From Prosapia bicincta (Eukaryota; Arthropoda; Insecta; Hemiptera; Cercopidae): DNA of 64,000 nt. The notes under the pieces were generated by a model. That model saw nothing but the letters and a program-made list of their open reading frames with translations, had not been told where the DNA came from and ran no database searches. Location: assembly GCA_036971475.1 (NCBI GenBank), contig JBAIZL010000003.1:54915842-54979841 (forward strand), given 5' to 3'. The position numbers and the translations under genes were made by a program. Below, piece by piece: positions 3,281-59,350 of this stretch (position 1 is its first letter; each line of letters starts with the position of its first letter).

Positions 3281-4400
3281 TACTAGGAATACACGAAAGA
3301 TGCGTACACCAGGAATATTGCGAAAGATGCGTACAGGATCAAGTTTTGACAGATGACGTCAGAACATTGTAACAGGCGAAAAATGCATACTTTTAGGCCA
3401 ACACGGATCTTTTAAAATCATTGAGCTACATAAATGAGTTTACCTCTGAGCTAAACATAGGCGTCTCTTAGTTTCTCGAGATTGGAGATCTTTTAAAACT
3501 TTATCTACATATTAAACCTGATTTCCATCACACTTTTCCAGGCTCAGGACTGGGAAAATGATAGTTATATCTTGCACTTTCATTTTGACGTGTTTAAAGT
3601 GAGCTTGTGCCTCGGTAATTTTGTTGTTTTATATTTACAATTAAAAATATTTTTGTTTCATTTTACACAATTTTTTAAATTTTAATCTATATTCCAACTT
3701 GACCAATTTATGACTATCCGAACTTTAAATTTAGTAAATTTGTTAAAACTTATTGAGACAGGACGTTTTCGATCGCTATGTGCCGATCTTCATCAGTAAG
3801 TTTTAACAAATTTACTAAATTTAAAGCTCGGATAGTCATAAACTATTGTTTAAGTGATTAATAAGATTCACCGAACGTAATGGACTGCAAAATTCAAGAA
3901 TTGACCAATTTATTTGATTTTACCATCTGATTTCTTGGGTCTAATCTAATCCATTGTTTTTTATTTAGGAAAGAGATCTTAAACAAGACATTAGTCTCCA
4001 ATTTCTAGGTATTTTCGTAGTTTTTTCTAATTTTTTGTCCGATTTAATATATTTTGTTTGTCTTCTCTTTCCTCCAGTCTCATATGCATAGGAGTCGAAG
4101 TTTCAGCCTCTTTTGATAAGTCTCTTTCGATTAAATCGAACTTGTCACCTCGACAGTTAAAAGCAAAGTTACCACTGACAATGTGGTAACCCTTTTTTGA
4201 CACGTTTTGACTGAGAGAATCCAAAACCTTGAAAGTTATCAGCAAATAGTTTAGTGGTAGATGACCTGGGTTGACTACTAGAGTTTGGTTTGTACGCTTT
4301 TTTCGCCTGACAAATTTACGACTCATCCTCAATTGCTGTTGTTTCCTCTTGTACGCATATTTCGTTGTACGCATCTTATGCTGTACGCATTTTTCGTGCC
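3281..4400. repeat. Possible foldback-like region with repeated GCGAAARATGCGTAC motif
   Basis: The left end (3290-3385) repeats a motif close to GCGAAAGATGCGTAC three times. The right end (4285-4400) has the inverted form, GTACGCATNTTTCGC, four times, with AGGCGAAAAATGCATAC facing GTACGCTTTTTTCGCCT. The two arms are about 1 kb apart, which suggests a non-autonomous foldback-type element. The PLE palindrome at 3709-3840 and a 115-codon minus-strand frame (4027-4374) of no recognisable family lie between them. Confidence 0.4.
3709..3900. repeat. Head-to-head pair of PLE 3' tails with hammerhead-like core
   Basis: Arms 3709-3752 and 3797-3840 are near-perfect reverse complements. The 44-base loop on the minus strand reads CTGATGA, A, a stem GATCG/CGATC, then GAAA. 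The right arm continues as a PLE tail to about 3890. The same tail occurs at 57590-57720, where it directly follows a minus-strand PLE GIY-YIG coding fragment, so the assignment to PLEs rests on sequence in this window. The base run after GAA is AACGTC, one change from the palindrome AACGTT seen at 57690. Confidence 0.7.
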
Positions 4401-4925
4401 ACCTTTACCAGTTTGACTTAATTTCAATATGGCGCCTGATTCATCCAGTCTATTTACGTTGTTAAAATATTTATAATCAGAACTCTTGGCGAATAACACC
4501 AACTGAATAACTGCTTAGTTTGTCTAGTGTTATTTGTTAATACACAAGACTTGAGTTTCATTTTGCTGTTATATAGCTTTCAAAAACTTTTACATCTTGA
4601 GCCTTATAATTGCCATCTGTGCTGTTAATAAGGGAAATATATGGCATCGCGTGGTGGGGTCGCTTACCCGAAGCGTCCAGCTCTCCACTGAGGTGGGAAA
4701 GGTGCCGCCTCCCAGTCTAAAATAAAAATCAGCTGATATAAGAATATTTTAATTGTATCTAAAAAAAAAAAAAACAATATATGGTTTGTTTTCATTTAAA
4801 TGTCTTTTCATTGTTAATTATTTTCCCCAACATACAACATCATACTGATTTACATTGCAGTAGCTTAAATTCTTTAATCTAATACGTTTTGTAAATTAAA
4901 TATTAAAAAGCGGGTAAGACTCTTA
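4401..4925. other. AT-rich spacer with a GC-rich segment and A-tract
   Basis: A GC-rich block at about 4645-4725 is followed by a (A)14 tract at 4760-4773. This could be a retroposed 3' end. One plus-strand frame stays open through the block but has no start codon and matches no family I know. Confidence 0.3.
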
Positions 4926-5186
4926 CTGTGGCGTAGCCAGAGGGGGCATAGGGGGGCACGTGCTCCCCCCCCCAAACCAATAAATTTCAGCAAAAAATAT
5001 TAACGTATAAAACAGCGTTAGTTTTTTTAGCGTCCTAACGACCCAACAATTGTGTAATTTTATTTTTATGCCAAAATAGCATAAATATAACTTCTAGATA
5101 CAAATTTTCAAAATTTTCCCAGGGGGGTTCCTCTTTCTGACCCCCGTAATCATCGTCCCCCAACCATCGTCCTGGCTACGCCTCTG
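4926..5186. mobile_element. Non-autonomous hAT-like MITE
   Basis: The ends are inverted repeats: CTGTGGCGTAGCCAGAGG at 4926-4943 and its counterpart CTGGCTACGCCTCTG at 5172-5186. Terminal GGCGTAGCCAG followed by a poly-G/poly-C subterminal run is common in short hAT-type elements. The interior (about 260 bp) is AT-rich and non-coding. Both flanks contain GGGTAAG, but I cannot place a clean 8-bp target duplication, so the superfamily is an inference. Confidence 0.55.
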
Positions 5187-5638
5187 GGTAAGGGTTTCTG
5201 GAGATTTTAAAATGGGGATATAAAATGGAGCAAATGCCAGCCTAAATGCACACCAAAGCGTGCCTATGTTTTACATTATAAATTTTACCAATTGGTAAGG
5301 TTAGGGTAGTTAGCAAAGTGGGTATCGTCTACTGTGGCGAGGTTCGCTAAGTAAAAATACACACCCCCCTGTTGCATTAGCAGCCCTAATAAATAAGCTA
5401 AGGTTTCTAGCCCCAAAGTTTTGTCTGCCGAGCTTGTTTCTTCCAGATCCGAGATTTCTATTTAAAGAGTAACGTAAACATACGTTAAAGGGGACGGGAA
5501 ACGGTTGGTTCACAGCGAGGCTTGAGAATATCACCAACCGGTCAGGAAGAAGAGCTTCTAACGAGAATTTAAAACAAATGTAGTGCATCTTATAGGCTCT
5601 TACTTTTGCAAATATAAGAAACATATACAGTTCGCTTA
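5187..5638. other. Unassigned sequence before the 47-bp array
   Basis: No gene is recognised. A minus-strand frame of 112 codons (5310-5648) runs partly through here into the first tandem repeat and has no recognisable motif. Confidence 0.4.
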
Positions 5639-7956: not shown

Positions 7957-8236
7957 GTATACATGTAGTACAAGTCTTCACTATTTATTAGGAATATACT
8001 GTGGTTGAATTTAATAATAAATACACAAAAACCTCTTAACCACAAACTTTCTTTATTTTACCCTTATGTACATTTCAATTACAAAGTAACCATCCTCAGA
8101 GGGATGTTCTTTACAGTACAGTCTTTGTATGTTATCCCTTTGAGGATGGTTACTTTGTAATTGAAATGTACATAAGGGTAAAATAAAGAAAGTTTGTGGT
8201 TAAGAGGTTTTTGTGTATACATGTAGTACAAGTCTT
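7957..8236. mobile_element. Palindromic PLE-like insertion with 22-bp direct repeats
   Basis: A long palindrome (about 8021-8104 with 8134-8218) is bracketed by a 22-bp direct repeat containing ACATGTAGTACAAGTCTT at 7957-7978 and 8215-8236, which looks like a target-site duplication. Each arm encodes, on its own sense strand, a hammerhead-like layout: CTGAGGA (the left arm read on the minus strand), T, stem GGTTAC/GTAATT, GAA, palindrome ATGTACAT, then A. Bases CCCT just before the core can pair with AGGG after the cleavage position. A single eroded copy of the same family lies at 47405-47500. Confidence 0.7.
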
Positions 8237-9500: not shown

Positions 9501-9523
9501 GAAATTCTCAATTTTCGTGGCAT

Positions 9524-9677: not shown

Positions 9678-9680
<3 letters not shown>

Positions 9681-9896
9681 TTTCACTTATGTACTTAAAC
9701 AAGAATCTTACTTGGTATTTATGCGAGTACTTTCAGAGACTAGTAAGTGCCTCCATCTTCCAGCATACTGAACGTATTTTGGATTTAGTTCCAAAATACG
9801 TTCAGTATGCCGGAAGATGGAGACACTTACTAGTCTCTGAAAGTACTCGCATAAATACCAAGTAAGATTCTTGTTTAAGTACATAAGTGAAAGTGA
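9678..9896. repeat. 219-bp near-perfect palindrome of PLE-terminus type
   Basis: The left half (9678-9786) is almost the exact reverse complement of the right half (9787-9896). Each arm carries the layout CGGAAGA or TGGAAGA, T, stem GGAGAC/GTCTCT, GAA, palindrome AGTACT, then C. The TATGC just before the core can pair with GCATA after the predicted cleavage base. The outer 40 bp, containing GTACTTAAACAAGAA, match the outer arms of 38031-38426. Both flanks are (TA)n. Confidence 0.75.
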
Positions 9897-9930: not shown

Positions 9931-9933
<3 letters not shown>

Positions 9934-10898: not shown

Positions 10899-11650
10899 TT
10901 TTTTTTGCTATAATCGATTACGTGGGAACGGGAAATAAATAAATATTTTTGACTTTTTTAAAAATATTATGCTTCATCACCGGTTTTTATTATTTCTTTC
11001 GTGTTCTTCAATAAGCGTAAGTAATTAGGTTATCTTAAAAAAAACCATACAAATATAAAATATATCGTTATAGTAAGAGAAGAGACTAATTTTTAACGCC
11101 ACGTTATAAATCAGACAGAAATAGTTGGATAAAAACAATCAATGAATGGTGCCACAAGTGTGAGAGAAGAAGAGACTAAAAGAGAAAATTCTGGAGGACA
11201 AAATGGATGACGAGACTGAGAAAAATGGATGATTAGGAATGCAACGAAATCATTGGTCAAAGGAAGGCAACGATCGTCAGCTGTAGAGCATTAAACATAA
11301 CAATTACTCAATACGTATAATTTATAGAAGTAAAGCAATGAGTGAATAAATAAAAACCCACCAATCACAATATAAGAATAGTATTTCTGAAGATGATTAC
11401 CATGTATTCGAAACTTACATGAAATAAGTGTAGTCAAACAAAAGGTTTTTATAATGTGGTTAGTGGGTTTTTATTTAGTTAGTTAAAATCAGGCCACAGA
11501 AATGTATTAATTAAGTAGGATACAATTGTATTCTAGTATAATAATAAAATACTTACGTGTAATGTAATGTGAAAAAGACACTATTAATTATAACATTTCC
11601 AGAATTTAAATATAAATTAGTCTATAAGGTAAAAAATAATTAGTAGATTT
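10896..11650. other. AT-rich sequence, probable intron of the minus-strand exon at 11664-11830
   Basis: No ORF is recognised. If the exon at 11664-11830 is real, this is the start of its first intron. Confidence 0.35.
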
Positions 11651-14149: not shown

Positions 14150-17100
14150 CCTGGGTAGCCCTACACGAAATTTGGGTCACCTGGGTAAATCAATAAAATG
14201 TCTTGCTGTCACTAATCAGACGAGGTGTATTGGGGTACGTAGACTTGGCCGTTTGGAGGTTCTACTCGTAGTAATTCTGGAAAACTCGGTGAATCGTTGT
14301 CACTGGTTGGAGTTCGTCTCGTCCCAGTGGCGAGCCTGTGTCCAGTCTAGGCCTTACAGCAAGGTCGAAATACTCTTACATACCGATACCACGGGTTGAG
14401 ATGGACGGGCTTCACGTGGTTTGAGGTTGGAGTCGTAGGAGCATAGGTTTAAAAAGTTAGTAGGAAGTCCCGCAAAGTTCTTTGTGTGGGGTCGGTTGAG
14501 AGATGAAATGAACCACAACAACCAGTTCTTCTAAGTTGCAAGACACACGAATTACGTTTCTGTCACCTGGGTAGACCACACGAAATCTTACTGCCAAGAT
14601 ACACGAACTACGTTTCTGTCTCCTGGGTAGGCGACACAAAATCTTACTGTCAAGACACACGAATTACGTTTCTGTCACGTGGGTAGACCGACACGAAATG
14701 TTGCTGTCAAGACACACGAAGTACATTTCCGTCACCAGGGTAGACCAACACAAAATGTTGCTGTCACTTGGGTAGGCTACACAAAATCTTACTGTCAAGA
14801 CACACGAATTGTTTCTGCCACCTGGGTAGACCACACAAAATCTTCCTGTCAAGACACACGAATTACGTTTCTGTCACCTGGGTAGACCAACACAAAATGT
14901 TGCTGTCACCTGGGTAGGCTAGACAAAAACTTACTGTCAAGACATACGAATTACGTTTCTGTCACCTGAGTAGCCTACACAAAATGTTGCTGTCACCTGG
15001 GTAGGCTAGACAAAATCTTACTGTCAAGACACACGAATTGTTTCTGCCACCTGGGTAGACCACACAAAATCTTCCTGTCAAGACACACGAATTACGTTTC
15101 TGTCACCTGGGTAGACCAACACAAAATGTTGCTGTCACCTGGGTAGGCTAGACAAAATCATACTGTCGCGACACACGAATTACGTTTCTGTCACCTGGGT
15201 AGACCATACAAAATCTTACTGTCAAGACACACGAATTACGTTTCTGTCACCTGGGTAGGCTACACAAAATCTTACTGTCAAGACACACGAATTACGTTTC
15301 TGTCCCCTGGGTAGACCACACAAAATCTTCCTGTCAAGACACACGAATTACGTTTCCGTCACCTGGGTAGACCAACACAAAATGTTGCTGTCACCTGGGT
15401 AGGCTACACAAAATCTTACTGTCAAGACATACGAATTACGTTTCTGTCACCTGGGTAGCCTACACAAAATCATACTGTCGCGACACACGAATTACGTTTC
15501 TGTCACCTGGGTAGACCATACAAAATCTTACTGTCAAGAGACACGAATTACGTTTCTGTCACCTGGGTAGGCTACACAAAATCTTACTGTCAAGACACAC
15601 GAATTAAGTTTCTGCCACCTGGGTAGACCATACAAAATCTTACTGTCAAGACACACGAATTACGTTTCTGTCACCTGGGTAGACCGACACGAAATCTTAC
15701 TGTCAAGACACACGATTAACGTTTCTGTCACCTGGGTAGACCAACACAAAATGTTGCTGTCACTTGGGTAGACCGACACGAAATCTTACTGTCAAGACAC
15801 ACGAATTACGTTTCTGTCACCTGGGTAGACCAACACAAAATGTTTCTGTCACCTGGGTAGACCGACACGAAATGTTGCTGTCACCTGAGTAGACCGACAA
15901 AAAATCTTACTGTCAAGCGACACGAATTACGTTTCTGTCACCTGGGTAGACCAACACAAAATGTTTCTGTCACCTGGGTAGACCGACACGAAATCTTACT
16001 GTCAAGACACACGAATTACGTTTCTGTCACCTGGGTAGACCGACACGAAATGTTGCTGTCACCTGGGTAGACCAACACAAAATGTTTCTGTCACCTGGGT
16101 AGACCGACACGAAATGTTGCTGTCACCTGGGTAGACCAACACAAAATGTTTCTGTCACCTGGGTAGACCGACACGAAATGTTGCTGTCACCTGGGTAGAC
16201 CAACACAAAATGTTTCTGTCACCTGGGTAGACCGACACGAAATCTTACTGTCAAGACACACGAATTACGTTTCTGTCACCTGGGTAGACCGACACGAAAT
16301 GTTGCTGTCACCTGGGTAGACCAACACAAAATGTTTCTGTCACCTGGGTAGACCGACACGAAATGTTGCTGTCACCTGGGTAGACCAACACAAAATGTTT
16401 CTGTCACCTGGGTAGACCGACACGAAATGTTGCTGTCACATGGGTAGACCAACACAAAATGTTTCTGTCACCTGGGTAGACCGACACGAAATGTTGCTGT
16501 CACCTGGGTAGACCAACACAAAATGTTTCTGTCACCTGGGTAGACCGACACGAAATCTTACTGTCAAGACACACGAATTACGTTTCTGTCACCTGGGTAG
16601 ACCGACACGAAATGTTGCTGTCACCTGGGTAGACCAACACAAAATGTTTCTGTCACCTGGGTAGACCGACACGAAATGTTGCTGTCACCTGGGTAGACCA
16701 ACACAAAATGTTTCTGTCACCTGGGTAGACCGACACAAAATGTTGCTGTCACCTGGGTAGACCAACACAAAATGTTTCTGTCACCTGGGTAGACCGACAC
16801 GAAATCTTACTGTCAAGACACACGAATTACGTTTCTGTCACCTGGGTAGACCACACAAAATGTTTCTGTCACCTGGGTAGACCGACACGAAATCTTACTG
16901 TCAAGACACACGATTAACGTTTCTGTCACCTGGGTAGACCAACACAAAATGTTGCTGTCACTTGGGTAGACCGACACGAAATCTTACTGTCAAGACACAC
17001 GAATTACGTTTCTGTCACCTGGGTAGACCAACACAAAATGTTTCTGTCACCTGGGTAGACCGACACGAAATGTTGCTGTCACCTGAGTAGACCGACAAAA

Positions 17101-19195
17101 AATCTTACTGTCAAGCGACACGAATTACGTTTCTGTCACCTGGGTAGACCAACACAAAATGTTTCTGTCACCTGGGTAGACCGACACGAAATCTTACTGT
17201 CAAGACACACGAATTACGTTTCTGTCACCTGGGTAGACCGACACGAAATGTTGCTGTCACCTGGGTAGACCAACACAAAATATTTCTGTCACCTGGGTAG
17301 ACCGACACGAAATGTTGCTGTCACCTGGGTAGACCAACACAAAATGTTTCTGTCACCTGGGTAGACCGACACGAAATGTTGCTGTCACCTGGGTAGACCA
17401 ACACAAAATGTTTCTGTCACCTGGGTAGACCGACACAAAATGTTGCTGTCACCTGGGTAGACCAACACAAAATGTTTCTGTCACCTGGGTAGACCGACAC
17501 GAAATCTTACTGTCAAGACACACGAATTACGTTTCTGTCACCTGGGTAGACCACACAAAATGTTTCTGTCACCTGGGTAGACCGACACGAAATCTTACTG
17601 TCAAGACACACGATTAACGTTTCTGTCACCTGGGTAGACCAACACAAAATGTTGCTGTCACTTGGGTAGACCGACACGAAATCTTACTGTCAAGACACAC
17701 GAATTACGTTTCTGTCACCTGGGTAGACCAACACAAAATGTTTCTGTCACCTGGGTAGACCGACACGAAATGTTGCTGTCACCTGAGTAGACCGACAAAA
17801 AATCTTACTGTCAAGCGACACGAATTACGTTTCTGTCACCTGGGTAGACCAACACAAAATGTTTCTGTCACCTGGGTAGACCGACACGAAATCTTACTGT
17901 CAAGACACACGAATTACGTTTCTGTCACCTGGGTAGACCGACACGAAATGTTGCTGTCACCTGGGTAGACCAACACAAAATGTTTCTGTCACCTGGGTAG
18001 ACCGACACGAAATGTTGCTGTCACCTGGGTAGACCAACACAAAATGTTTCTGTCACCTGGGTAGACCGACACGAAATGTTGCTGTCACCTGGGTAGACCA
18101 ACACAAAATGTTTCTGTCACCTGGGTAGACCGACACGAAATCTTACTGTCAAGACACACGAATTACGTTTCTGTCACCTGGGTAGGCCGACACGAAATGT
18201 TGCTGTCACCTGGGTAGACCAACACAAAATGTTTCTGTCACCTGGGTAGACCGACACGAAATGTTGCTGTCACCTGGGTAGACCAACACAAAATGTTTCT
18301 GTCACCTGGGTAGACCGACACGAAATGTTGCTGTCACCTGGGTAGACCAACACAAAATGTTTCTGTCACCTGGGTAGACCGACACGAAATGTTGCTGTCA
18401 CCTGGGTAGACCAACACAAAATGTTTCTGTCACCTGGGTAGACCGACACGAAATCTTACTGTCAAGACACACGAATTACGTTTCTGTCACCTGGGTAGAC
18501 CGACACGAAATGTTGCTGTCACCTGGGTAGACCAACACAAAATGTTTCTGTCACCTGGGTAGACCGACACGAAATGTTGCTGTCACCTGGGTAGACCAAC
18601 ACAAAATGTTTCTGTCACCTGGGTAGACCGACACGAAATGTTGCTGTCACCTGGGTAGACCAACACAAAATGTTTCTGTCACCTGGGTAGACCGACACGA
18701 AATCTTACTGTCAAGACACACGAATTACGTTTCTGTCACCTGGGTAGACCACACAAAATGTTTCTGTCACCTGGGTAGACCGACACGAAATCTTACTGTC
18801 AAGACACACGAATTACGTTTCTGTCACCTGGGTAGACCAACACAAAATGTTTCTGTCACCTGGGTAGACCGACACGAAATCTTACTGTCAAGACACACGA
18901 ATTACGTTTCTGTCACCTGGGTAGACCGACACGAAATGTTGCTGTCACCTGGGTAGACCGATAAAAAATCTTACTGTCAAGCGACACGAATTACGTTTCT
19001 GTCACCTGGGTAGACCAACACAAAATGTTTCTGTCACCTGGGTAGACCGACACGAAATCTTACTGTCAAGACACACGAATTACGTTTCTGTCACCAAGAT
19101 AGACTAACACAAAATGTTGCTGTCACCTGGGCGAACCAACATAAAATTTTGTTGTCACCTGGGTAAATCAACACGTGGCCATGATGACACCTGGG
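14150..19195 (+). repeat. 5-kb satellite built from 32-bp and 57-bp subunits
   Basis: The basic unit is 32 bp (TGTTGCTGTCACCTGGGTAG plus ACCAACACAAAA). Two versions alternate: CAACACAAAA and CGACACGAAA. A longer 57-bp version inserts CTTACTGTCAAGACACACG followed by AATTACGTTT. The 14150-14540 edge and the 19080-19195 edge are degenerate; the centre is very homogeneous. Marker variants (CGATTAACG at 16911 and 17611; GAGTAGACCGACAAAAAATC near 17090 and 17790) give a 700-bp higher-order period, with an earlier copy 1198 bp upstream. Every subunit begins CTGTCA, and most contain CACCTG. Frames through the array are not genes. Confidence 0.96.
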
Positions 19196-26420: not shown

Positions 26421-26889
26421 TTAAATTCTTGATTTATATTATTTGTTTTTACTTGAAATAAATACTTGCACAAAAGCTTTTCAATAACCCTAACAGCTCT
26501 AACGTTTACAAAATTAATGTAGGCCTGTAACTCGATGAAATTTTAAACCGGAAACTATTAAATCGTGACTCTAAACTGCCTGTAAGAAAAGATTCTGAGT
26601 TACCTGTAATAAAGATTATTATAATTGAGGCTACTACTCGGAATAACTGTATTGGCAGTAACAAAATGCAATATATCACCTAATTAGAAAGAAAAGTTTG
26701 GTAATTGTATACAATATATGACTTCACCTCCAATTATTTTCAGGTTTACATTGGGGAAAATTAATTTTTTGTAAATGTAGCAATCTAAAAGTAGAGATCA
26801 AAATTTGAATAAATATACGTAAGTATTAACACAAATCACAAAACCATCTTACATCATTAATAAATAGCTCTTCACAAATTCACAATTAT
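26421..26889. other. AT-rich sequence
   Basis: No feature is recognised. Confidence 0.5.
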
Positions 26890-27091
26890 AAATACTTTAT
26901 TTTCTAACGCGTTTCAATGACTTATATGATCATCATCAGAGGAACTATATAATTACAACAATATCTACTACATAATCACAACAATCTCACTACTGCTACT
27001 ACATAATCACAACATACATTTGATGATGTAAGTACTACATCTGATGATAATTATATAAGTCATTGAAACGCGTATGAGATTAAAGTATTTA
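26890..27091. repeat. Inverted pair with hammerhead-like cores
   Basis: Arm 26890-26939 faces arm 27041-27091, with about 100 bp between them. Each arm reads CTGATGA, T, a weak stem ending GTCATT, GAA, palindrome ACGCGT, then T or A. It follows the same layout as the other PLE-type termini but has poor stem II pairing. The spacer contains a short direct repeat, CTACATAATCACAACA. Confidence 0.6.
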
Positions 27092-28347
27092 TTTAATTTA
27101 TCACCTTTACTCACAATCCAGCTCAAATATAAGAACTATGAGTTTGTGTACAGTTATTTATTAATCAAATCAACTTACAAACCAGCTCAAATATTGTTTC
27201 CAGGTTAAATCAGGTTATGGGTAAGTAATTTTTATACAATAGGTCTATAGCTATTACAATCACGTACAAAATATTCGGTTAAAATGTATTTATTTAAAAA
27301 GAAATAATAAAGAAATTAAATTTTTAGCTTAAGCTAACCAAATTGTTGGCATGAAAGAGTGGCCTATTTTCGCCGCCAGTATAAGGCAGAGAAGTGTCCG
27401 GCTATCGTCAGGAAACCCAATAATCTTCTGAAATAATACTTTATTTATATAGCCTATTGTAAAATAACTGTAGGCCTATAGTAATTAATTGTAAAATAGT
27501 ATAAAATTAAACAAATCTTGTTTTATAAAGAAGCAATGAGTTTGTAAAGTTTCATATAAATTTTCATTAATTTTAGGCCATGTTTGTATTTTTTTTTAAG
27601 TTTTAACAACTATTTCTGGTTCCTCCCCTATTTACGTTATTACAATGTACTTTTAAGTACATATGTTGAATCTAAAAAAAACTCAAGTTCTCGCTTAGTA
27701 TTGTATACAAACGCTAACCTTATTTGTTGATTTATTGTTTTTTTAATGCGTTGAATATTTTTTTTCAAAAACTGTCGCTGAAATGATTTATTGCGATATT
27801 TTTTTAATAATTGAAAGTATACAAATACCTGAAAATAGTTACAAACTGTCGAACTGTTTCTTATGGAACTTCAAGTGCATATTTCATTAAATATGACCTA
27901 TATAGAGTGCCTTCATTTTCACCGTAGAAATGAGGGTGTTTACTATACAGTTTTTTTTTTGACAAATAAAATTTCCCCAACCCTTTGAAACTTAAAAAAA
28001 CGCCTACCAAGTAAACATTACATAGTTGCATTCCGAAATTCCCCTGGCATTCTAGATCAAACCAGACAGAATTAGAAGCTGTAAAAGATAGGGCTCAATT
28101 AAAACCGGAAGCCTCCATAAACACAGTTTCCGGTACAAACACTTCCAATTGTCGCGCAATGACATAACACTTCCTCGTTATATTCCCAGAAGACTAAATT
28201 ATTAGAAATTATTTCGAAAAAAACTCAAAGCGGTAAATAACCCAGATTTTCAGATTTTTTTTCTAGCTTTTGAGACCTATTTTATTCAAAGACGAGAGCT
28301 TGCTTTTTTGTTAAACTTTAAAAATGTGTACGAAACTTGGGATTTTT
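27092..28347. other. AT-rich sequence
   Basis: No gene or repeat is recognised. 27350-27430 is locally GC-richer, without a readable frame. Confidence 0.45.
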
Positions 28348-29371: not shown

Positions 29372-29606
29372 ATGTATTTTAAAACAACATAGGTTATTCA
29401 AATACAAGAATATTATTTATTTATATTCAAAGCTTTTCGTTGGTAAACAGTACCAACATCATCAGGAATGAAAAATAAAATAACCATTGCAATACAATAA
29501 TTATTGTAATTTTAATTCCTGATCATGTTGGTACTGTTTGCCAACGAAAAGCTTTGAATATAAATTAATAAATATTCTAGTATTTGAATAACCTATGTTG
29601 TTTTAA

Positions 29607-29611
<5 letters not shown>
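29372..29611. repeat. 240-bp palindrome with two hammerhead-like cores
   Basis: The outer arms are reverse complements (ATAGGTTATTCAAATAC and its inverse). Cores: 29433-29465 on the minus strand (CTGATGA, T, stem GTTGGTA/TACCAAC, GAA, palindrome AAGCTT, T), and 29519-29552 on the plus strand (CTGATCA, same stem with one change). ATTC before the plus core can pair with GAAT after the cleavage base. It is followed by (TA)n at 29610-29655. Confidence 0.75.
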
Positions 29612-29659: not shown

Positions 29660-29691
29660 TAAATATGGTGATATATTTTCTTGTAGTATAG

Positions 29692-29939
29692 TTAATAAAT
29701 TAAAAATATTTCATAAACAAGAATACTTTTAATGAATATATTTATTCAAAGCTTTTCGCCGATAAAATAGTATCAGCATCTTCAGGAAAATTATTATCTA
29801 ATAAAATTTATTATTTAATCTAAGATTTTATTAGATAATTATTTTCCTGAAGATGCTGATACTATTTTATCGGCGAAAAGCTTTGAATAAATATATTCAT
29901 AAAAAGTATTCTTGTTTATGAAATATTTTAAATTTATTA
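29692..29939. repeat. 248-bp palindrome with two hammerhead-like cores
   Basis: Arms 29692-29790 and 29842-29939 are near-perfect inverse copies. Each carries CTGAAGA, T, stem GCTGATA/TATCGGC, GAA, palindrome AAGCTT, T (29752-29785 on minus, 29847-29880 on plus). It is related to, but clearly different from, 29372-29611, so it is a separate subfamily. Confidence 0.75.
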
Positions 29940-30594
29940 TATATATACTCGACTCGCAAATCAAACGATTTTCTTAATTTACATTAATCGAAATAGATTC
30001 ATGTTATACTGATTGAATATTGATCATGTTAATATGCACTTAAGACTGGAAAAAACTACCTAATTTTTTAAATTTAATCTTCTTTAGGCACGAATAACAC
30101 TTTTTCTAACAGAAGTAAAATCCCAGAAATAAAACGTCATAAGGAGGTCATCTTAAAGACCTTTTCCCGTCAAATCGAAGATGCTCGGATTATCCCGAAA
30201 TTTTTCAAAAGTTTAACGAAACATTATTTTACAAATAATAGCTGATTTTGTTTATACTAGAGGATATTTAAAGGTTATGTTTAAAACACAGTTAAACGAA
30301 ATTTATTATTTTATCAGCAATATCGTGTATTTGATTAATTTAAGTGGTAACTAATGATTTTAGTTTTTATTATTCATAGGTTATGTTAATTATTGTTTTG
30401 TATATTAACAGCAAGTTGAAATGTATGATAATTGTAAAGTTAATAACCTCGAAAGAATCCAAATAAAAATACAATTTATAAACGAAACTAAGAAATACCC
30501 ATGATAAATATGCTACATGATTCAATAAGCAAGTCGAAATAATTAGTAATCACAACATGTAAGTCAGTAAAATGCAACATTTTACTTCTAAAGT
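29940..30594. other. AT-rich sequence
   Basis: Nothing recognised. Confidence 0.5.
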
Positions 30595-37390: not shown

Positions 37391-38030
37391 ATCTAGACTC
37401 AGTAGTTTTTTGTAGAGCTCTAGATTGTAAAAATGCAACTTAAAGTTTGTTAATAAGACATAGTATAAGTTTGCTATTTCATGCAAGTCTTTAACCTGAT
37501 TTCTTAAATAAATACTAATTGAACAAGCACTTGAATTTAATATCCACTAAGTTATTAATTTTCAAATGTAGGGCCTATAAAGAGAAAAAGTACTTCGGTA
37601 TTATACCAACCTCACACTCACAGGGTAAGTAAGACATTACAAATATAAGACAAAAGGAAATAAGCTTTTTACATGTTTATTGATAAAATAACAATATATA
37701 AATCATAAACAATGAAAAAATATATTTTAAAAACTATATCACATACATTTGCTATAATAATTATAATGTATACAGAATAGTTGAGTACAGTAATGCTAAC
37801 AGTAGGTTATGCTTTGCTTTAAAATAGAATAATAAGGTAGGTTAAAAGTTTGTTTTTTATAAATCTTACTCTTTTTTCCAGTAGATCACAATATTAACGT
37901 GTATGGAAAAATGTCTTTTTTTGCTATAATTCTGCAAAAATCTTTGTTATATTAAATTTATTTTCTTAAATAAATTTTAAACAAATTTATTCTTCAGTTA
38001 TTTAGTATAGAAGAAAACATATTTATATTT
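37391..38030. other. AT-rich sequence
   Basis: No feature is recognised. Minus-strand AATAAA signals are present (for example near 37678), which could end a long minus-strand 3' UTR, but AT content makes this weak. Confidence 0.35.
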
Positions 38031-38426
38031 CACTATATGTACTTAAACAAGAACCTTACTTGGTATTTATGCCAGTTAACTTTCAAAGATTGGTATTATC
38101 TCCATTATCGAGCATCACTGACCGGGGGTTGTAGTAGACTGCAAGCTGTATGTAATTTCTGTTGTCACAAGGTGTGGTGTACCGTTATTGTTCTATTTTC
38201 GGATTCACTACACTGTGGTAGTCTTTTAAGTTTGTCTTGGGGTTAATTTTGTCTATTAGGTTGAATAATTTATCGTTTTTTGATTTTTGTGAAAACGGAA
38301 ATTCCATACAGCTCGCAGTCTACTACATCCCCCAATCAGTGATACTCGATAATGGAGATACTATCAATCTTTGAAAGTTAACTCGCATAAATAAAAAGTA
38401 AGATTCTTGTTTAAGTACATATAGTG
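38031..38426. repeat. Large inverted repeat, relative of 9678-9896
   Basis: Arms 38031-38150 and about 38308-38426 share their outer part (GTACTTAAACAAGAA) with the palindrome at 9678. Each arm carries a decayed core (TCGATAA), T, stem GGAGAT/ATCTTT, GAA, palindrome AGTTAACT, then C. The loop of about 155 bp between the arms is unassigned. Confidence 0.7.
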
Positions 38427-38486
38427 AAAGTGATAAGTGAATACAAGAAAAAGGTGTTGCAAAGTTTAAAAAAAACAATATATATT

Positions 38487-44664: not shown

Positions 44665-45126
44665 TTACTTTGTATGAATCTTGTTAAAAGATATTGACTC
44701 ATGTATGATAATCTTTTCTAATTTAAAATTATAATAATAAATATTACTTTTAAGATCTGACTTAATTCTTTCCAGAACTTGTTTGGCAACTTTTTGATCT
44801 GTGTCTCTGTTAACTCGGTGGGTTTCCAAGTTTGAGGCTAGTCGGAATGGTACTCCATCAATTTGACTGGTTACACTTGTAGATCTTCCGAATGTTTCAG
44901 GGTTTGTTTGTGTTTGATATTGTGAGTGATGAACTCCTTGAGGACTAATTCCATATGGCAGGTTAGTAACAGGCTTCGTTGGATTTTGTGGGTAGATACC
45001 TGGAGAAGTCGCATGCACAATCGAGTATCCTTCTTCACTACCTATCTCATAAACTTCAGTAGCAGTAATCGTTTCATCAGAAGTTTTCCTCTTTAAACTA
45101 CCAAAAAGCCAACTTGTTATGGACAT
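44665..45126 (-). CDS. UMA-domain protein, UMAD1-like
   Basis: This is a 153-codon minus-strand ORF. It begins MSITSWLFGSLKRK, and residues 22-38 (TATEVYEIGSEEGYSIV) resemble the short acidic 'EGYxIV' segment of UMAD1-like proteins. A polar linker rich in Pro, Ser and Gln follows. From about residue 89 it reads IDGVPFRLASNLE and later YYYNFKLEKIIIHES, the VPFxL ... Y.F.LE pattern of the UMA domain, which in UBAP1 and MVB12 contacts ESCRT-I. ESCRT-I membership would put it in endosomal sorting; that is inference. The start codon is immediately preceded by a good splice acceptor (TTGTTGTTATAG), so a 5' UTR exon probably lies upstream. Ten bases after the stop there is a strong donor (GAG|GTAAGA), so an intron in the 3' UTR or an alternative C-terminus is possible. 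It is by far the best host gene in the window. Confidence 0.65.
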   Translation of the reverse strand: MSITSWLFGSLKRKTSDETITATEVYEIGSEEGYSIVHATSPGIYPQNPTKPVTNLPYGISPQGVHHSQYQTQTNPETFGRSTSVTSQIDGVPFRLASNLETHRVNRDTDQKVAKQVLERIKSDLKSNIYYYNFKLEKIIIHESISFNKIHTK

Positions 45127-45582: not shown

Positions 45583-45826
45583 TTTTCGAGAGTAAATAAT
45601 ATACACTAATTACAGGAATTAATTTATTGAATAATACACTCAAAGCTTTTCGTTGGTTGACATTACCAACATCCTCAGGAGTTACTAAGAATGACAAAAG
45701 AACTCCAATTCTTTTGTCATTCTTAGTAACTCCTGAGGATGTTGGTAATGTCAACCAACGAAAGCTTTGAGTGTATTATTCAATAAATTAATTCCTGTAA
45801 TTAGTGTATATTATTTATTCTCGAAA
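45583..45826. repeat. 244-bp near-perfect palindrome with two hammerhead-like cores
   Basis: Arms 45583-45700 and 45712-45826 are almost perfect reverse complements around a loop of about 10 bases. Cores: 45647-45678 on minus and 45733-45764 on plus, each CTGAGGA, T, stem GTTGGT/ACCAAC, GAA, an AAGCTT-type palindrome, T. ACTC immediately before the core pairs with GAGT immediately after the predicted cleavage base, giving a short stem I. This is the best-preserved example in the window and is very young judging by arm identity. Confidence 0.8.
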
Positions 45827-45849: not shown

Positions 45850-48095
45850 TATTATATTATTTAAAGTTATATATCAATATGGGTCGACCATCAAAACTAT
45901 CATGAGGAAAATTTGTTCATTAAAATCCGATGAAGCTCGTTCTAAGCAGCTTTCTCAAATAAAAAAGTATATTTGTTTTATAATAATTTTTTAATATGTG
46001 GTAGAATACTACATCAAATAAATACTGTGATTGTTTATTTTGATTATAAGTTATTTTATAGTTCATAATCTTTGTTAAAAAAAATTTTCACAACAAAATT
46101 TCTTTTGCTTTGATATTAAAATACTGTATTGCCTCCATATCAATTGGATTGAGATATAACTATAATAGGATCACTGAGAAAGTTTCCCCTCAATTCTTCC
46201 AACATTATCGTAGAACAAACATTTAAAAAATCCAAACCAGAATCTCCACCTTTTTAAAAGTCGGTTGAAAATGGAGGCAACTTCACTTGTCAACCAGGTG
46301 GCTTATCTCAGCAAACTTTGTTTTTTTGTACAGTATTACCTAATCGTCTCATCAAGACACTATGTAGATATATGCAAATGTAGTACAACATAGTGTTTTG
46401 TTATATGAAAACCATGACGTTTTATATATTGTACAGTAAGTTATTTTTGTTTTTTTAACTTTTAGAGTGTGGCAAACAAGTTAAATTTTTTTCAATGCTC
46501 CTGAAACATTTAACATCACCCGGTGTAATTTGTTTTAGCCAATATCCATTGTGTGTAGAATGTAAATACTTACTTTTTTAGCTATATTCTTATGCAGCTA
46601 ATAAAATAATTGTGGTTTTATATAGATTTGTATACAAAAAATCATTTACATTCTGTAATGGCAAAATGTTACAAAAATTTAATTTATTTTTCCCATGCAC
46701 ATTACGGTCACATGTTTTTAAAACATTATTATAATGGAAACAGCTAGAACTTTTACAATCAGGACAGATTTTTAATAATAAATGAAAATTGTCAACATAT
46801 CAAGTAACTGCTTTTACTCGTACCTTTCAAGATATTGTTATCAAAGTTTTTTTTTTTCTTGATATAATGAAACTTATCCTAACCAGATCCTTTGTTGCTT
46901 CATTATAAAATGTGTATATAATTATTTAATGTTCTATAAAAAATGATTTGTATGATAAATAAACTTAGTTTCAGTGTTATTAGTGTGTTTAGGTTTAATT
47001 CATTTTTTTTTTTAAATGAAGCGCTACTTATGAATTTTGTTTTTTCATATAATTTAATTATTTTTCAGAATTCATTCTTTAGTAATATATTTGAAAGGAA
47101 GAATAGTCAGGGTGATATGAAAACAAACTGATGTTTAAAATATTAAAAAGAGGAACATTACCTAAAATATTACTAAGTGGAACAAACAAGTATATTATTA
47201 AGTATAATAACTTATAAAATAATATATAATTAAAAATTTGTTGCAACAAAAATCCTCTCATCTTTAATTGCCATCATTTATGCAGAGCAATATTATATAT
47301 TGCTACAATATTACAGGGGTTCAATAATTATAAAGTCATTTAGGATTAAATAGTTATTTATTATAATTACGTAAAGCAACTATGGCCTGATTTTTCAATT
47401 CAAATAAATAAAACCTCTTAACTACAAATATAACTTCTTATTCAAACCCTTAATACATTTCAATTGTAAAGCAGTTATATTTAGAGGAATTATTACAAAA
47501 ATAACTTACAAAGGATTATTTTTTCAATAATTTCTTTGTCATTAAATGTTTGAATAAAAAATTTGTCTAAAAGGGGTTTGGTTAAAGTTCTTTTAAAAGA
47601 CCTGCATCATATTTTTACAAAACCTTATTATATCGGCTTGCCTTGTACAGTCATTTCTATCTGGTTACTAGAAGGTTCCAACATTTACATTGTGTACTGT
47701 TGTGTTCGCTGCAGCAGAAAAGCACTTACTGAGCCATTTGTCAAAACATTTTATTGTAATGAAAAAATGGGATCTGGTGTAATATGAAACTTGATTTTAT
47801 ATAATGTGTGCGTAAGTAAGTTTAGGTTATGTATAGCTTTATCAAATTTTAAGCACTATTTTTGTTTGGATTCATAAAATCGTTTGCTTAATGTATTTTT
47901 GATAACAAAAAAAAAAAAAAAATTGGATAGGACCTGTATTTGGGTATGTAACAGATAGGCTAACTTAGAAATGTTTTATAAAGAAAACTTGATTTCATAG
48001 TTTTGGTATGAATTAAAAGTGAGGCTACATATGTTTTTTCAAAGATTTTAATTGTTGAGGCATCAGAACCAAGTTTTATTATTTTTTGTTGTTGA
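45850..48095. other. AT-rich region with repeat scraps
   Basis: 46268-46325 matches 8890-8945. 47405-47500 is one eroded arm of the 8021-8218 family (ACATTTCAATTGTAAAGCAG). An (A)n tract lies at 47908-47922. Short frames here have no motifs. Confidence 0.4.
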
Positions 48096-51901: not shown

Positions 51902-52230
51902 TCTCCATCAATACCCAATCAAACTTTGGTGAACATTTCATGACCACAAACCACAAATACAAAAAAATAACATCAAACCTACTAATTCTCTACAAATAAA
52001 ACAAAAATACCATTGTTACAAAATAAGACAATAAGAACTATACAAACTACACCCAATACACATACTTAACACACAATAACATTATAACTCACATATACTT
52101 TTTGATATTATAACCCCCAATACTCTTTAAAAATATATCAATTGGCCCTATCTTACCCCACCCCTACCCTAACACATCCAAGAGGTCAGTTACGGTCTGA
52201 GTTGAAAACGGCTACTCCCAAAAAGTAAGT
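51902..52230 (+). pseudogene. PLE fragment, end of GIY-YIG domain and 3' tail
   Basis: Eroded frames match the C-terminal part of the PLE endonuclease seen at 52440-52858 (NFGEHFMTTNHKYKKITSN versus NFADHLNYTKHDYIDITSN). It ends in the PLE tail GTCAGTTACGGTCTGAGTTG and AGTAAGTGCTACTATAGGCA. Confidence 0.75.
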
Positions 52231-52407
52231 GCTACTATAGGCAAATGTAACATACTAACATATGTTCATGTCTAAACACTTTTAAGTGTTTATAAACTTG
52301 CCTATAGTAGCACTTACTTATGTTTGTTGAGGACGTCTGTTTCGGGAGATGTGTCCCTTTGTCAACTCAGACCGTAACTGATCTCAAGGTTTACGTAGGT
52401 TAGGAGG
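52205..52407 (-). repeat. Facing PLE tails forming a palindrome
   Basis: The tail AAGTGCTACTATAGGCAAAT at about 52226-52245 faces its inverse at 52293-52312. The minus-strand tail continues to 52407 with the hammerhead-like region (stem GGGA/TCCC, then GAA, then ACAGACGT, a decayed palindrome). Confidence 0.7.
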
Positions 52408-52985
52408 CTACTTCACACACAACACTCTCAATAAACAATTTAAACCCAACAACAAAATTGATGACATTTACAACACCACTGGAGTTTACAAACTAACTTG
52501 CAGTTCGTGCCCCAGTTTTTACATAAGCCAAACAGGGAGGTCCTTCTACATACGTTACCAAGAACATATAAAATCACTAAAAAACAATAACTACCAATCA
52601 AACTTCGCCGATCATCTCAACTACACAAAACATGACTACATAGACATAACATCTAACCTACAAATTCTTCATAAACAACACAGAAATAACCGACCCTACA
52701 CAACCGAACAATACGAAATATACAGACACTTGGAACTACACCCTACACACATACTCAACACACAATTACATTACAACTCACACGCACGTTTTGACATAAC
52801 TCCTAATACTCACAAAATACACCCATACCACCATAATATCCCGCCCAAACCCTAACACCCTAACCTACGTAAACCTTGAGATCAGTTACGGTCTGAGTTG
52901 ACACAGGGACACATCTCCCGAAACGGCCGTCCTCAACAAACATAAGTAAGTGCTACTATAAGCAAGTTTATAAACATTTAAAAGT
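52408..52985 (+). pseudogene. PLE fragment with GIY-YIG endonuclease domain
   Basis: One open frame from about 52450 to 52855 reads DDIYNTTGVYKLTCSSCPSF, then YISQTGRSFYIRYQEH and NFADHLNYTKHDYIDITSN. GVY...YIS is the GIY-YIG pair, with the second Gly changed to Ser; the Arg in YIRYQEH is the conserved catalytic-site Arg of the family. This is the endonuclease that Penelope-like elements carry after the reverse transcriptase. The RT is missing on the 5' side. The tail (52865-52985) includes ACACATCTCCCGAAACGG and the palindrome ACGGCCGT. Confidence 0.85.
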
Positions 52986-53149
52986 GTTTAGTGATAACTA
53001 GTAGCTCACGTGAAGATGGAATCAACAAATATATATGTTCGTGTATTTTTAGTGATTGGTGTTAATCTTCGAACTGTTATCCTTGGTTTGAGTTTTGAGT
53101 GAGAAAAGCTAATAACATGTTTTTTGATTGTTTATAATTATGTTGTTAG

Positions 53150-55000: not shown

Positions 55001-55120
55001 CAATTTTATAGTTCTTCATTTATAATAAGTAATTTTGTTTTCCATTATTACCATAATAGGTTTACTGATGTGGTCAACCAGTTTAAATTCAATTTACAAG
55101 GCTTTCTTGAAGTATTTTGA

Positions 55121-55675: not shown

Positions 55676-55689
55676 TTTTTTTTTAGAGT

Positions 55690-55905: not shown

Positions 55906-56284
55906 AACAATGTTCAACAAAAAATGTCAAAGTTCACCAACAAAACAATACTCTTAAATGAATCATTTTAATAAAGTACAATCAGTTAATTGATCAACTT
56001 TTCCACTATAATAAATGCGTTGTAATATGGAGAAAATGTGTTGACTGGAGCAACTAAATATTTCTCCATGAAAAGAAACATTTTTGGGTTAACAACTGAA
56101 TAACTATGTAATATTTTAGAATTTCAAAATCGATTATATCATTTGATTCACAATAATATCATACTTATTTTTCAGTAGCGCGCAAATTCTGTTTACATCT
56201 ATTATTTAGGGGATGGAAGCTCTTATTTCACTAGCTTTAGTAGTTTGTTATTTTTGTTTGCAAATTATTAATAGATATTATTGT

Positions 56285-56690
56285 TAGATTAGTGCCCCAG
56301 TTTTTACATAGGCCAGACAAGAGGTCCTTCTACAAACGTTATCAAGAACATATAAAAGCACTAACAAACAATAACTACCAATCAAACTTCGCTGATCATC
56401 TTATCTCCACAAAACATGACTACATAGACATAACATCTTACAACTCACACAGACATTTTGACAATATAACTCCTAATAATCCCAAAATACACCCACACCA
56501 CCATAATATCCCACCCCACCCTAACACCTTAACCTACGTAAATTTTGAGATCAGTTACGGTCTGAGTTGACAATGAGACACATCTCCAGAAACGGCCGTC
56601 CTCAACAAATATAAGTGCTACTATAGGCAAGTTTATTAATATTTACAAGTGTTAGTGAGAACTAGTAGCTCACATGAAGATGGAATCAAC
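56285..56690 (+). pseudogene. PLE fragment inserted in the hAT
   Basis: The frame 56292-56570 reads KRSFYKRYQEHIKALTNNNY and FADHLISTKHDYIDITS, the GIY-YIG domain truncated at both ends and with an internal deletion. The PLE tail follows (AACGGCCGTCCTCAACAAAT, GTGCTACTATAGGCAAGTTT). Confidence 0.8.
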
Positions 56691-56789
56691 AAATATATTG
56701 ATAGATGTTACCAATAAATTGTTAGCTCCGTGCATTTGGATAGTGTAACTCAAACTATAAATGTGTTTTGTTATATCACGGAGAACCAT

Positions 56790-57450: not shown

Positions 57451-57452
57451 TT

Positions 57453-57585
57453 TCAATTTCTTCTATTTGTTTACACTTGCCTTATAGGCCTATATATCTT
57501 GTCCAAATTTTTAATTGTTAATAAAATACTTTTTATTCATCCATTTAAGTTCAAGTACATTTTTTTAAATTCTTGAATTTTGTAG
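57453..57585 (+). repeat. Truncated short-TIR repeat (copy M7)
   Basis: Starts CAATTTCTTCTATTTGTTTA and includes TATAGGCCTATATATCTTGT; cut off at about 57585 by a PLE tail. Confidence 0.7.
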
Positions 57586-57985
57586 TACATTACGTTCGGT
57601 GAATCTTAATTAAGCACTTAAACAATAGTTTATGACTATTTTGAACTTTAAATTTTGTAAATTTGTTAAAACTTACTGAGATAGAACGTTTTCGATTACT
57701 ATGTGGCGATCTTCATCATTGTCTTCTGCTTGGAGATGTCGGGTCAAGCGGTGACAGTTTTAAAGGCAGGTTTTCGATAGTATCAAAGAGCATGTGTGAT
57801 TTGTATTGTGTTTGTTCGTTTAATATGTTTGAACTTTGTGTTTTGTGTGTCTGTAAATTTCATGTTCTTCTAGTGTGTTGGGATGTTGTCCTTTTTTGTT
57901 GATGTGTAGGATATCTTGGTTATGGTAAATGTCTGTGTATTTATGTCTTGTTACTTTTATGTGATTGTAAAATTTTGAGTTGGGC
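57586..57985 (-). pseudogene. PLE fragment: end of GIY-YIG domain plus hammerhead-bearing tail
   Basis: On the minus strand FYNHIKVTRHKYTDIYHNQD, EEHEIYRHTKHKVQTY and, after a stop, NKHNTNHTCSL are the C-terminal half of a GIY-YIG endonuclease of a different PLE subfamily. Directly downstream comes TGATGA, A, stem GATCG/TAATC, GAA, palindrome AACGTT, C, and then the same tail as in 3797-3890 (TAAGTTTTAACAAATTTAC). This fragment physically links the hammerhead-like motif to a PLE coding end. Confidence 0.8.
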
Positions 57986-58115
57986 ATTGGACAAACAGGT
58001 CGCAGCTTTAAACATAGGGTCGAGGAACACAAACAGAACACCAACTCAACATTTTACAATCACATAAAAAAAACAGGACCCAAATACACACACATGTATC
58101 ATGTTACATTTTTTA
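57986..58115 (+). pseudogene. Inverted PLE GIY-YIG fragment
   Basis: The plus strand reads GQTGRSFKHRVEEHKQNTNS followed by TFYNHIKKTGPKYTHMYHV. It is an inverted copy of part of the neighbouring minus-strand fragment (TTTTACAATCACATAAAA on both arms), so the two form a head-to-head pair in coding sequence. Confidence 0.75.
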
Positions 58116-58164
58116 TTTTGTCTATTAGATTTAGGCTATTTTTTATGCTACAATGATTATTAAA

Positions 58165-59350
58165 TTTCACCATAGCTAGCATCTTAGCAGAAATATTCAT
58201 ACACCATATTGAACAAAACCACATTTTACACAACAATAAATACTCAGATAACATAATTTACTGGTACAGATACGTCGACATTATAACATTATATAAAGGC
58301 AACACACGCAGAGCACACATATTTCTAAAACACCTTAATTCCATACACCCAAACTAACATACACCATCGAAACAGAACAACAAAGCTCCCTCAACTTCTT
58401 AGACCTTACAATTAAACGAACAGACAAACAAAACACATAAATTCAACATATACCGAAAACCCACTAATACTAATACGACCATACACAGTTCCTCAAACCA
58501 CCCACACCAACATAAACTAGCTGCTTACAACACCATGATATATTGCCTGCTTAAAACACCGTTAGACAAAGATGAATACTACCAGGAGTTAAACACCATA
58601 AAATATGTAGCACAAACGAACGGATACAACCCAACAATGATTGATAAATTATACAACCGCCTAAAAAATAAACATAATAACCCAAATACAAACACACAAG
58701 ATGACAATTCCATAAAATACTTATCAATACCATACAGATCATCCAAAACTCACAATCTAACTAACACTACGAAAATACAACTACAAAATAGCTTACTCCA
58801 CACACAACACTCTCAACAAACAATTTAAACCCAACAACAATATCAACGACATTTACAATACCACTGGAGTTTACAAACTAACTTGCAGTTCATGCCCCAG
58901 TTTTTACATAGGTGAGACAGGGAGGTCATTCTACACACGTTACCAAGAACTTATAAAAGCACTAAAATACAATAACTACCAATCAAACTTCGCCGATCAT
59001 CTCAACTCCACAAAACATGACTACATAGACATAACATCTAACCTACAAATTCTTCATAAACAACACAGAAATAACCAACGCTGTACAACCGAACAATACC
59101 AAATATACAGGCACTTCAAACTACACCCTACAGGCATACTCAATACACAATTACATTACAACTCACACACACTTTTTGACATAACTCCTAATACACACAA
59201 AATACACCCACATCACCAAAATATCCCACCCCCACCCTAAACTATGTAAACCTTGAGATCAGTTACGGTCTGAGTTGACAATGAGACACATCTCTCGAAA
59301 CGGCCGTCCTCAACAAGCAAAGTAAGTGCTACTATAGGCAAGTTTAAAAC
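58165..59350 (+). pseudogene. Longest PLE copy: RT, GIY-YIG, 3' tail
   Basis: The RT part (58170-58830) reads NIIYWYRYVDIITLYKG, the YVDD catalytic box with one Asp lost, then FNIYRKPTNTNTTIHSSSNH, the PLE post-catalytic region, and LDKDEYYQELNTIKYVAQTN. After a frame change GIY-YIG follows (58850-59200): NTTGVYKLTCSSCPSFYIGE, TRYQELIKAL and FADHLNSTKHDYIDITSN. The order RT then GIY-YIG is diagnostic for Penelope-like elements. The tail (59240-59350) has stem GAGA/TCTC, GAA, palindrome ACGGCCGT, C, with TGAG before the core able to pair with CTCA after it. Several stops and frameshifts make it dead. Confidence 0.88.

Follow-up and report, generated by a model that had tools for sequence, protein, structure and literature searches.

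Penelope-like elements (PLEs) carry minimal type I hammerhead ribozymes, described in two reviews (PMC7761336, PMC7229834) as having no helix III and possibly working as dimers, through which we cite the work of Cervera and de la Pena 2014 and of Lunse, Weinberg and Breaker 2017 on these ribozymes. According to the first of these reviews, published in 2020, the role of minimal PLE hammerheads is a mystery, and most of them are dispersed in non-coding DNA (PMC7761336). For a PLE of a lizard, it was reported that the enzyme cuts and extends both strands, that the hammerhead cleaves only with protein, that cleavage is unneeded for insertion, and that reverse transcription has two start points within a stem-loop, between which the tail lies (PMC11167929). 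Natural replacement of the C3-G8 pair by U3-A8, and palindromes in stem III or loop III able to pair two ribozymes, are among the variants treated by Perreault et al. 2011 (PMC3088659). Here we describe a 64,000-nucleotide stretch of the hemipteran Prosapia bicincta (assembly GCA_036971475.1, contig JBAIZL010000003.1, positions 54,915,842 to 54,979,841), hereafter the window. Our reading is that minimal type I hammerheads reside in the pseudo-long terminal repeat (pLTR) tails of several GIY-YIG PLE families, and that such tails were inserted as head-to-head pairs; we give it a probability of about 0.92.

The proposed unit would comprise, in this order, stem I, the core C3-U-G-A-N-G8-A9, a single extra base, stem II, GAA, a self-complementary stem III that has no loop, and H17 (a base other than G). 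Set out by hand, 21 copies of it, which we call arms, lie at 13 loci in the window. An original prediction, made from the letters of the window alone, had listed a series of repeat termini sharing a hammerhead-like order of features; this order is readable at the listed termini, and also at 11383, which was not listed. Arm-versus-arm scores (shuffled null: 99% at 25, maximum 29) divide the arms into six sequence families instead of the "at least eight unrelated" termini once claimed: A (3709 and 57.69 kb), B (8021 and 11383), C (9678 and 38031), D (26890), E (29372, 29692 and 45583) and F (52.3-52.9, 56.6 and 59.3 kb). A few C-E scores of 27-32, at or just above the null, are due to a common TTCTTGT stretch. 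All seven palindromes named in the prediction are present. The two family C elements have different palindromes, AGTACT and AGTTAACT, and their stem II reads GGAGAC/GTCTCT and GGAGAT/ATCTTT, respectively; both the letters and the palindrome length differ between the two elements, so that self-complementarity was kept through change.

The unit resembles the minimal PLE hammerheads of the reviews in the type I order, the diminished helix III, the pLTR location and the cleavage as dimers proposed or reported there, and differs from them, as those reviews describe them, in the base inserted after A9 in every match and in the many head-to-head pairs. The Poseidon PLE of Anolis carolinensis (PAc, PMC11167929) offers further likenesses, namely the hammerhead at the junction of the pLTR and the open reading frame (ORF), the optional tail, the cutting and extension of two strands, and the start of reverse transcription in a stem-loop. 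In contrast to PAc, the ATG formed here by A9, the inserted base and G10.1 in 16/21 window arms opens a frame that stops after 3-22 codons in all 16. The Penelope families of Adineta vaga (PMC3846280) share with the window head-to-head inverted pLTRs, palindromes at the junction, an optional 31-bp tail at one end and target duplications, whereas 9/13 window loci are tail pairs with no ORF seen; by text count, the word "hammerhead" has zero occurrences in that paper. Compared with the variants treated in PMC3088659, U3-A8 here appears fixed in one PLE family (F), as it occurs in 9/9 exact genome matches. No paper on hammerhead-bearing head-to-head tail pairs was found among the open-licence papers listed by our searches. 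Hammerheads in PLEs, a palindromic stem III, the U3-A8 variant and tails joined head to head have each been published before; the hammerheads described here are thus of a known kind, of which they are a very abundant example.

Both strands of the window were scanned for the layout, namely a CTGANGA box, 0-2 bases, stem II, GAA, a perfect palindrome beginning with A, and a non-G base. With the exact box and a palindrome of 6 or 8 bases we obtained seven matches, whereas 178 of 179 boxes permuted from the same letters gave none (the remaining one gave a single match), and the reversed window gave none either; the layout is real. A looser scan (palindromes of 4-8 bases) returned 8 matches with the exact box, 12 with at most one and 15 with at most two box mismatches, against means of 0.03, 0.5 and 3.6 and maxima of 1, 2 and 11 in 30 dinucleotide shuffles. 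The looser scan alone does not make a convincing case for the two-mismatch matches, which include a tail of family F, and, because the shuffles reach the weaker boxes, families C and F need other support.

The core C3-U4-G5-A6-N7-G8-A9 is exact in 10/21 arms, which belong to families A, B, D and E, while families C and F depart from it at positions 3, 4 and 8. The CTGANGA-like box of the original prediction thus holds for about half of the arms, and gives way to CGGAAGA/TGGAAGA at 9678, to TCGATAA in both arms at 38031 and to TTGACAA/TTGACAC in the GIY-YIG tails. Positions 3 and 8 are CG in 11, UA in 6 and other combinations in 4 of the 21 arms. The palindrome, said to be perfect, is so in 17 arms and broken in four (3757, 11383, 45729 and 52328). 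That it begins with A and ends with T, as expected of the A15.1-U16.1 pair, was borne out by A15.1 in 21/21 and U16.1 in 20/21 arms. The following base, supposedly never G, is non-G in 19/21 arms and G in the other two, 11383 and 38069, the latter in an element listed by the prediction. The inserted base after A9 is T in 17 arms and A in 4. Stem II does not follow A9 directly, as a single base, correctly foreseen, lies between them in 7/7 matches of the window scan and in 10/10 and 13/13 matches of two other scans, which likewise permitted 0-2 bases. De la Pena and Flores reportedly described an additional core nucleotide in a viroid hammerhead in 2001.

Covariation in both stem I and stem II speaks for the architecture of a type I hammerhead. 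Stem I forms between the letters immediately upstream of the box and those immediately downstream of position 17. With one arm for each of the 13 loci, 47/52 cells are paired in stem I against 20.9 after row shuffling, and 47/52 in stem II against 30.0 (p 0.0002 in both cases), and with one arm per family 21/24 and 23/24 cells are paired (p about 0.003); the use of the better arm per locus and of a stem II length per family favours pairing somewhat in these tests. Stem I fails in the arm at 27037 (0/4 pairs). Six family B cores from the window and the genome have 59/60 cells paired, with a covariation score above all 500 shuffles and with 5/10 pairs changed on both sides (matched by 17/500 shuffles), and sliding the partner leaves at most 48% paired; in their stem I, pairing is 100% and 3/4 pairs are changed on both sides. 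Among 49 distinct family B cores, taken from the first 100 matches listed after dropping 7 of other lengths and merging duplicates, 270/294 stem II cells are paired (shuffle mean 238, maximum 254) and 40 are doubly changed (mean 14, maximum 28).

Covariance models trained on single families link some of the families to each other. Applied to the window, the family E-trained model retrieves the 11383 copy with an E of 0.1, family C with E values of 0.013, 0.18, 1.4 and 1.7, and family D with 0.37; in 20 evenly spaced 10-kb stretches (200 kb) of one contig it retrieves family B at E 0.006, 0.017, 0.017 and 0.64 and family D at 0.07. With the family B-trained model, family D scores E 0.0002 and 0.017 in the evenly spaced stretches and 0.17 in the window, where the model also reaches a decayed copy at 47447 (E 0.004) and, weakly, family E (0.06-0.13).

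Over the whole 2.207-Gb genome (361 contigs), exact matches to four family patterns total 71,745, whereas the same patterns reversed have 2 in all: 42,042 for family E (reversed control 1), 21,049 for family B (0), 4,378 for family D (1) and 4,276 for family A (0), all of which are counts of matches and not of insertions, a pair being counted twice and an array many times. For E, B and D the inserted T was part of the pattern and stem II was not demanded. The complete family F core has 9 exact matches in the genome (reversed control 0), and all 9, the 59.3-kb copy of the window included, carry U3-A8 under a pattern permitting C3 and G8. In the evenly spaced stretches, a search with at most one box mismatch and with G17 permitted gave 13 matches, every one with a single inserted base and none with G17. 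One of the 13 belongs to a seventh family, at L050:5829-5873 (minus strand), which reads CTGATGA, an extra A, GGCAAC/GTTGCT, GAA, ACATGT and T. One scan of viral contigs for the family E core found nothing.

These counts bear on whether the ribozymes are fossils, that is, an architecture inherited with the PLEs in families that now do not cleave or cleave only with the PLE protein. The lizard hammerhead showed no cleavage without protein, and its cleavage was dispensable for insertion in vitro (PMC11167929); moreover, the window copies of families C and F have altered boxes. On the other hand, tens of thousands of genome positions fit the box, GAA and palindrome of families A, B, D and E, and compensatory changes separate the subfamilies of family B. 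We consider the fossil state possible, if rather doubtful.

The link to PLEs, also part of the original prediction, is supported by reverse transcriptase (RT) or GIY-YIG frames upstream of some copies, such ORF linkage being found for families A, E and F. At locus L003, a 414-aa frame combines RT (PF00078, E 1e-10) with the GIY-YIG motif LYVGQTKKK and is followed by a family E hammerhead; at L017, the GIY-YIG part ends about 90 nt before its hammerhead. A GIY-YIG motif also occurs at 58905 and 57981 in the window and at L039, L044 and L046, and a GIY-YIG-like frame lies upstream of the family A hammerhead at 57.7-58.0 kb. For families B, C and D no linked ORF was found, and their PLE membership is suggested by the shared anatomy.

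Seven window elements are inverted pairs with tails pointing outward, and several of these carry a one-sided extension. Target duplications are clear in 2/9 elements, 10 bp (3699/3901) and 18-22 bp (7957/8215); the other 7/9 have none, or AT-rich matches inseparable from chance. These duplications and one-sided tails, like stem I and the decayed 47447 copy, had been absent from the original prediction. Among the first 100 matches listed per pattern, pairs within 400 bp of each other are head to head in 13/18 cases for family E (an 18-copy array with its 17 same-strand pairs omitted), 17/25 for B and 9/11 for D (nothing omitted in B or D), where random orientation would give a quarter. Inverted pairs invite another interpretation, in which the elements are foldback DNA transposons resembling miniature inverted-repeat transposable elements, their sub-terminal palindromes bind a protein, and the likeness to hammerheads is a by-product of nested palindromes. 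The seven inverted-repeat elements, several of them near-perfect hairpins and several lying in (TA)n, would fit it. Nevertheless, the unpaired core letters are specific, with nothing from 178/179 permuted boxes, and one-sided tails are a PLE trait; single copies 3' of RT/GIY-YIG frames at L003 and L017 largely refute the case for family E. We regard this interpretation as scarcely credible.

The tailed copies may form a stem of 6-7 bp with a loop mostly of 31-42 nt, in which the end of the extension-less copies lies. The sequence of the stem varies between families, with partial covariation: TTCTTGT/ACAAGAA, TTCCTGT/ACAGGAA, TGTGGTT/AACCACA, GCTACTA/TAGTAGC and GTTCGG/CCGAAC. The main support for this putative stem-loop is that families A, B, C, E and F all have it, each in other letters; shuffling by itself supports it weakly, with a combined p of 0.02 (0.009 without family A). 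The 14 rows compared were picked by eye from among further intact-stem copies. Copy by copy, only that at 52.3 kb, whose helix is formed with another tail copy, falls below 0.05. Tailed copies with a damaged stem stand outside the 14 rows, such as L007, L015, L018, two family E copies of L037, L038, L043 and the window copy at 57.6 kb.

An 18-copy head-to-tail array of family E, spaced at 189-247 bp (G000:C4:442952-446715, loci L020-L030), brings to mind non-LTR retrozymes, which are small elements with a circular RNA and whose head-to-tail tandem repeats contain canonical type I hammerheads, and smaller same-strand clusters of families A and B point the same way. However, most close pairs among the matches listed are head to head, stem III is loopless, and the array, the one that was examined, has a short inverted arm in its units, besides a (TA)n tract of variable length, and looks like a secondarily amplified PLE tail pair. 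The prevailing arrangement thus departs from the canonical hammerheads in head-to-tail tandem units of retrozymes, and a retrozyme origin is very unlikely. The same-strand clusters, probably arrays as well, lie at G000:C8:39791225-39796184 (family A) and at G000:C4:1730932-1731362 and 1745398-1745700 (family B).

Returning to hammerheads in PLE tails, a stem III without a loop would give only a stub in one RNA and the full 6-8 bp between two RNAs, so cleavage would most likely be by dimers. As to the pairs, their anatomy, the target duplications and the published lizard PLE biochemistry suggest that the PLE enzyme would nick both target strands and prime reverse transcription on each from the tail stem-loop, and that the two short cDNAs would then be joined into a head-to-head tail pair. 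Self-priming, the route to head-to-head pLTRs that PMC3846280 suggests, may be an alternative here. All 21 arms run through the cleavage site, which means that their templates were uncut there, though arms were found via their hammerheads and those ending at the site would be missed. In the asymmetric pairs, the short arm ends about 5 nt (3709) or about 25 nt (11383) past the cleavage site, and not at it.

Several results weigh against hammerheads in PLE tails, or against their activity. Rfam hammerhead models gave no match at the gathering score or at E up to 10, in the whole window and in two 66-nt pieces; the covariance-model check proposed with the original prediction, at relaxed thresholds, was therefore negative, which we think may be because these models call for a loop on stem III and have no room for an extra base. 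In the window, the 8021 copies and the whole of families A and F escape the family E-trained model at E up to 10, and it ranks unrelated chance stretches beside family D; the family B-trained model retrieves no member of A, C or F with an E of 1 or less. In family B, further pair types number 8, with no excess over 8.3 in shuffles. Only 6/21 window arms keep every feature (exact box, at most one mismatch in stem II, at least 3/4 stem I pairs, perfect palindrome and non-G). The GIY-YIG part at L017 stays below the Pfam cut-off (E 0.0015, 19.2 against 22.6 bits), and none of the GIY-YIG-like window ORFs, including 58761-59240, reaches one. Whole-pair transcripts of seven elements are predicted to fold into a single hairpin (-66 to -214 kcal/mol) that hides the ribozyme, and the predicted lowest-energy dimer is a double hammerhead in only 2/21 arms. 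As transcripts of pairs are predicted to be locked in this way, the pairs are more likely products than working sources.

In two-strand folding, the stem III palindromes pair between the strands in 12/21 arms. We find it probable that at least one family will cleave in vitro under dimer-forming conditions. A bolder proposal, which we hold to be improbable, is that the palindromic stem III serves as a dimerisation element, which would keep two uncut templates together in a single PLE particle; the two nicked strands could then be primed simultaneously from the tail stem-loops, and the joined cDNAs would become the pairs. If it were true, the hammerhead would be a docking device for insertion and cleavage a step of release or quality control, and many dispersed minimal animal hammerheads would be footprints of paired insertions. 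Among the copies examined here, many dispersed hammerheads are PLE tails, often in head-to-head pairs. The natural subfamilies supply ready-made compensatory variants, with which the coupling of RNA dimerisation, cleavage and two-strand insertion becomes testable. The features of the window are collected in Table 1.

Table 1. Hammerhead-bearing elements, their arms and associated frames (positions in the window)
Feature	Position	Strand	Details
Family A (AACGTT) PLE tail pair	3699-3910		element 3709-3900; 10-bp target duplication TTGACCAATT at 3699-3708 and 3901-3910
Family A hammerhead	3757-3800	-	CTGATGA, extra A, stem II 5/5, stem I 2/4, broken AACGTC stem III, C17
Family B (ATGTACAT) head-to-head pair	7957-8236		element 8021-8218; 18-22-bp repeat at 7957-7978 and 8215-8236
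Family B one-sided tail	7979-8020		42 nt, on the 8021-8218 pair
Family B hammerhead	8061-8103	-	every feature kept; CTGAGGA, extra T, stem II 6/6, stem I 4/4, A17
Family B hammerhead	8136-8178	+	box TTGAGGA
Family C (AGTACT) head-to-head pair	9678-9896		in (TA)n; right one-sided tail with ACAAGAA
Family C hammerhead-like	9721-9766	-	box TGGAAGA
Family C hammerhead-like	9807-9852	+	box CGGAAGA, stem I 4/4, stem II 6/6
Family B asymmetric tail pair	11347-11477		not in original prediction; short arm 11347-11378, long arm to 11477
Family B hammerhead	11383-11425	+	CTGAAGA, stem I 4/4, broken stem III, G17
Family D (ACGCGT) head-to-head pair	26884-27098		
Family D hammerhead	26902-26943	-	CTGATGA, stem II 5/6, stem I 3/4
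Family D hammerhead	27037-27078	+	CTGATGA, stem I 0/4
Family E (AAGCTT) head-to-head pair	29372-29611		in (TA)n
Family E hammerhead	29425-29469	-	intact
Family E hammerhead	29515-29559	+	box CTGATCA, position 8 changed
Family E head-to-head pair	29687-29945		near-perfect hairpin; left one-sided tail
Family E hammerhead	29744-29789	-	intact; CTGAAGA
Family E hammerhead	29843-29888	+	intact; CTGAAGA
Family C head-to-head pair	38028-38429		palindrome AGTTAACT; right one-sided tail
Family C hammerhead-like	38069-38115	-	TCGATAA (U3-A8), G17
Family C hammerhead-like	38342-38388	+	TCGATAA (U3-A8), C17
Family E head-to-head pair	45583-45826		in (TA)n; near-perfect hairpin; left one-sided tail
Family E hammerhead	45638-45682	-	intact; CTGAGGA
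Family E hammerhead	45729-45772	+	stem III one base short
Family B hammerhead, decayed	47447-47488	-	not in original prediction; family B model E 0.004
Family F (ACGGCCGT) 5'-truncated PLE	52272-52991		133-nt inverted ends, 96% alike
Family F hammerhead-like	52328-52369	-	TTGACAA (U3-A8), broken palindrome
Family F GIY-YIG-like ORF	52382-52855	+	inside the 52272-52991 PLE
Family F hammerhead-like	52894-52935	+	TTGACAC, stem II GGGA/TCCC
Family F hammerhead-like	56563-56604	+	TTGACAA, stem II decayed 2/4
Family A hammerhead-like	57680-57723	-	ATGATGA, palindrome AACGTT; frame like a GIY-YIG ORF end upstream
Family A 57.7-kb frame, inverted arms	57922-57983 / 58041-58102		inverted relative to a second fragment (GIGQTGRSFKHRVEEHKQ, + strand)
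Family F GIY-YIG-like ORF	58761-59240	+	YIGETGRSF; ends about 30 nt before hammerhead
Family F hammerhead-like	59271-59312	+	TTGACAA (U3-A8), stem II GAGA/TCTC, stem I 4/4, C17

A further family F copy lies at 52182-52250 in direct orientation, with most of its hammerhead core deleted. The long hairpins at 29429-29555, 45652-45760 and 9721-9852 match microRNA precursor models with E down to 1e-8, far below the gathering scores; we read these matches as foldback artefacts and not as microRNAs, and they are a likely trap for automatic annotation. At 44665-45126 (minus strand) we noticed an exon-like ORF with a borderline match to PF10240 (multivesicular body subunit 12; 22.5 bits against a cut-off of 22), and protein searches with this exon and with the family F ORF returned no homologue. 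The window also holds a 47-bp tandem repeat from 5498 to about 7580, with about 39 copies of which the central ones are almost identical, and a complex array with units of 32, 56/57 and 229 bp at about 14430-19030.

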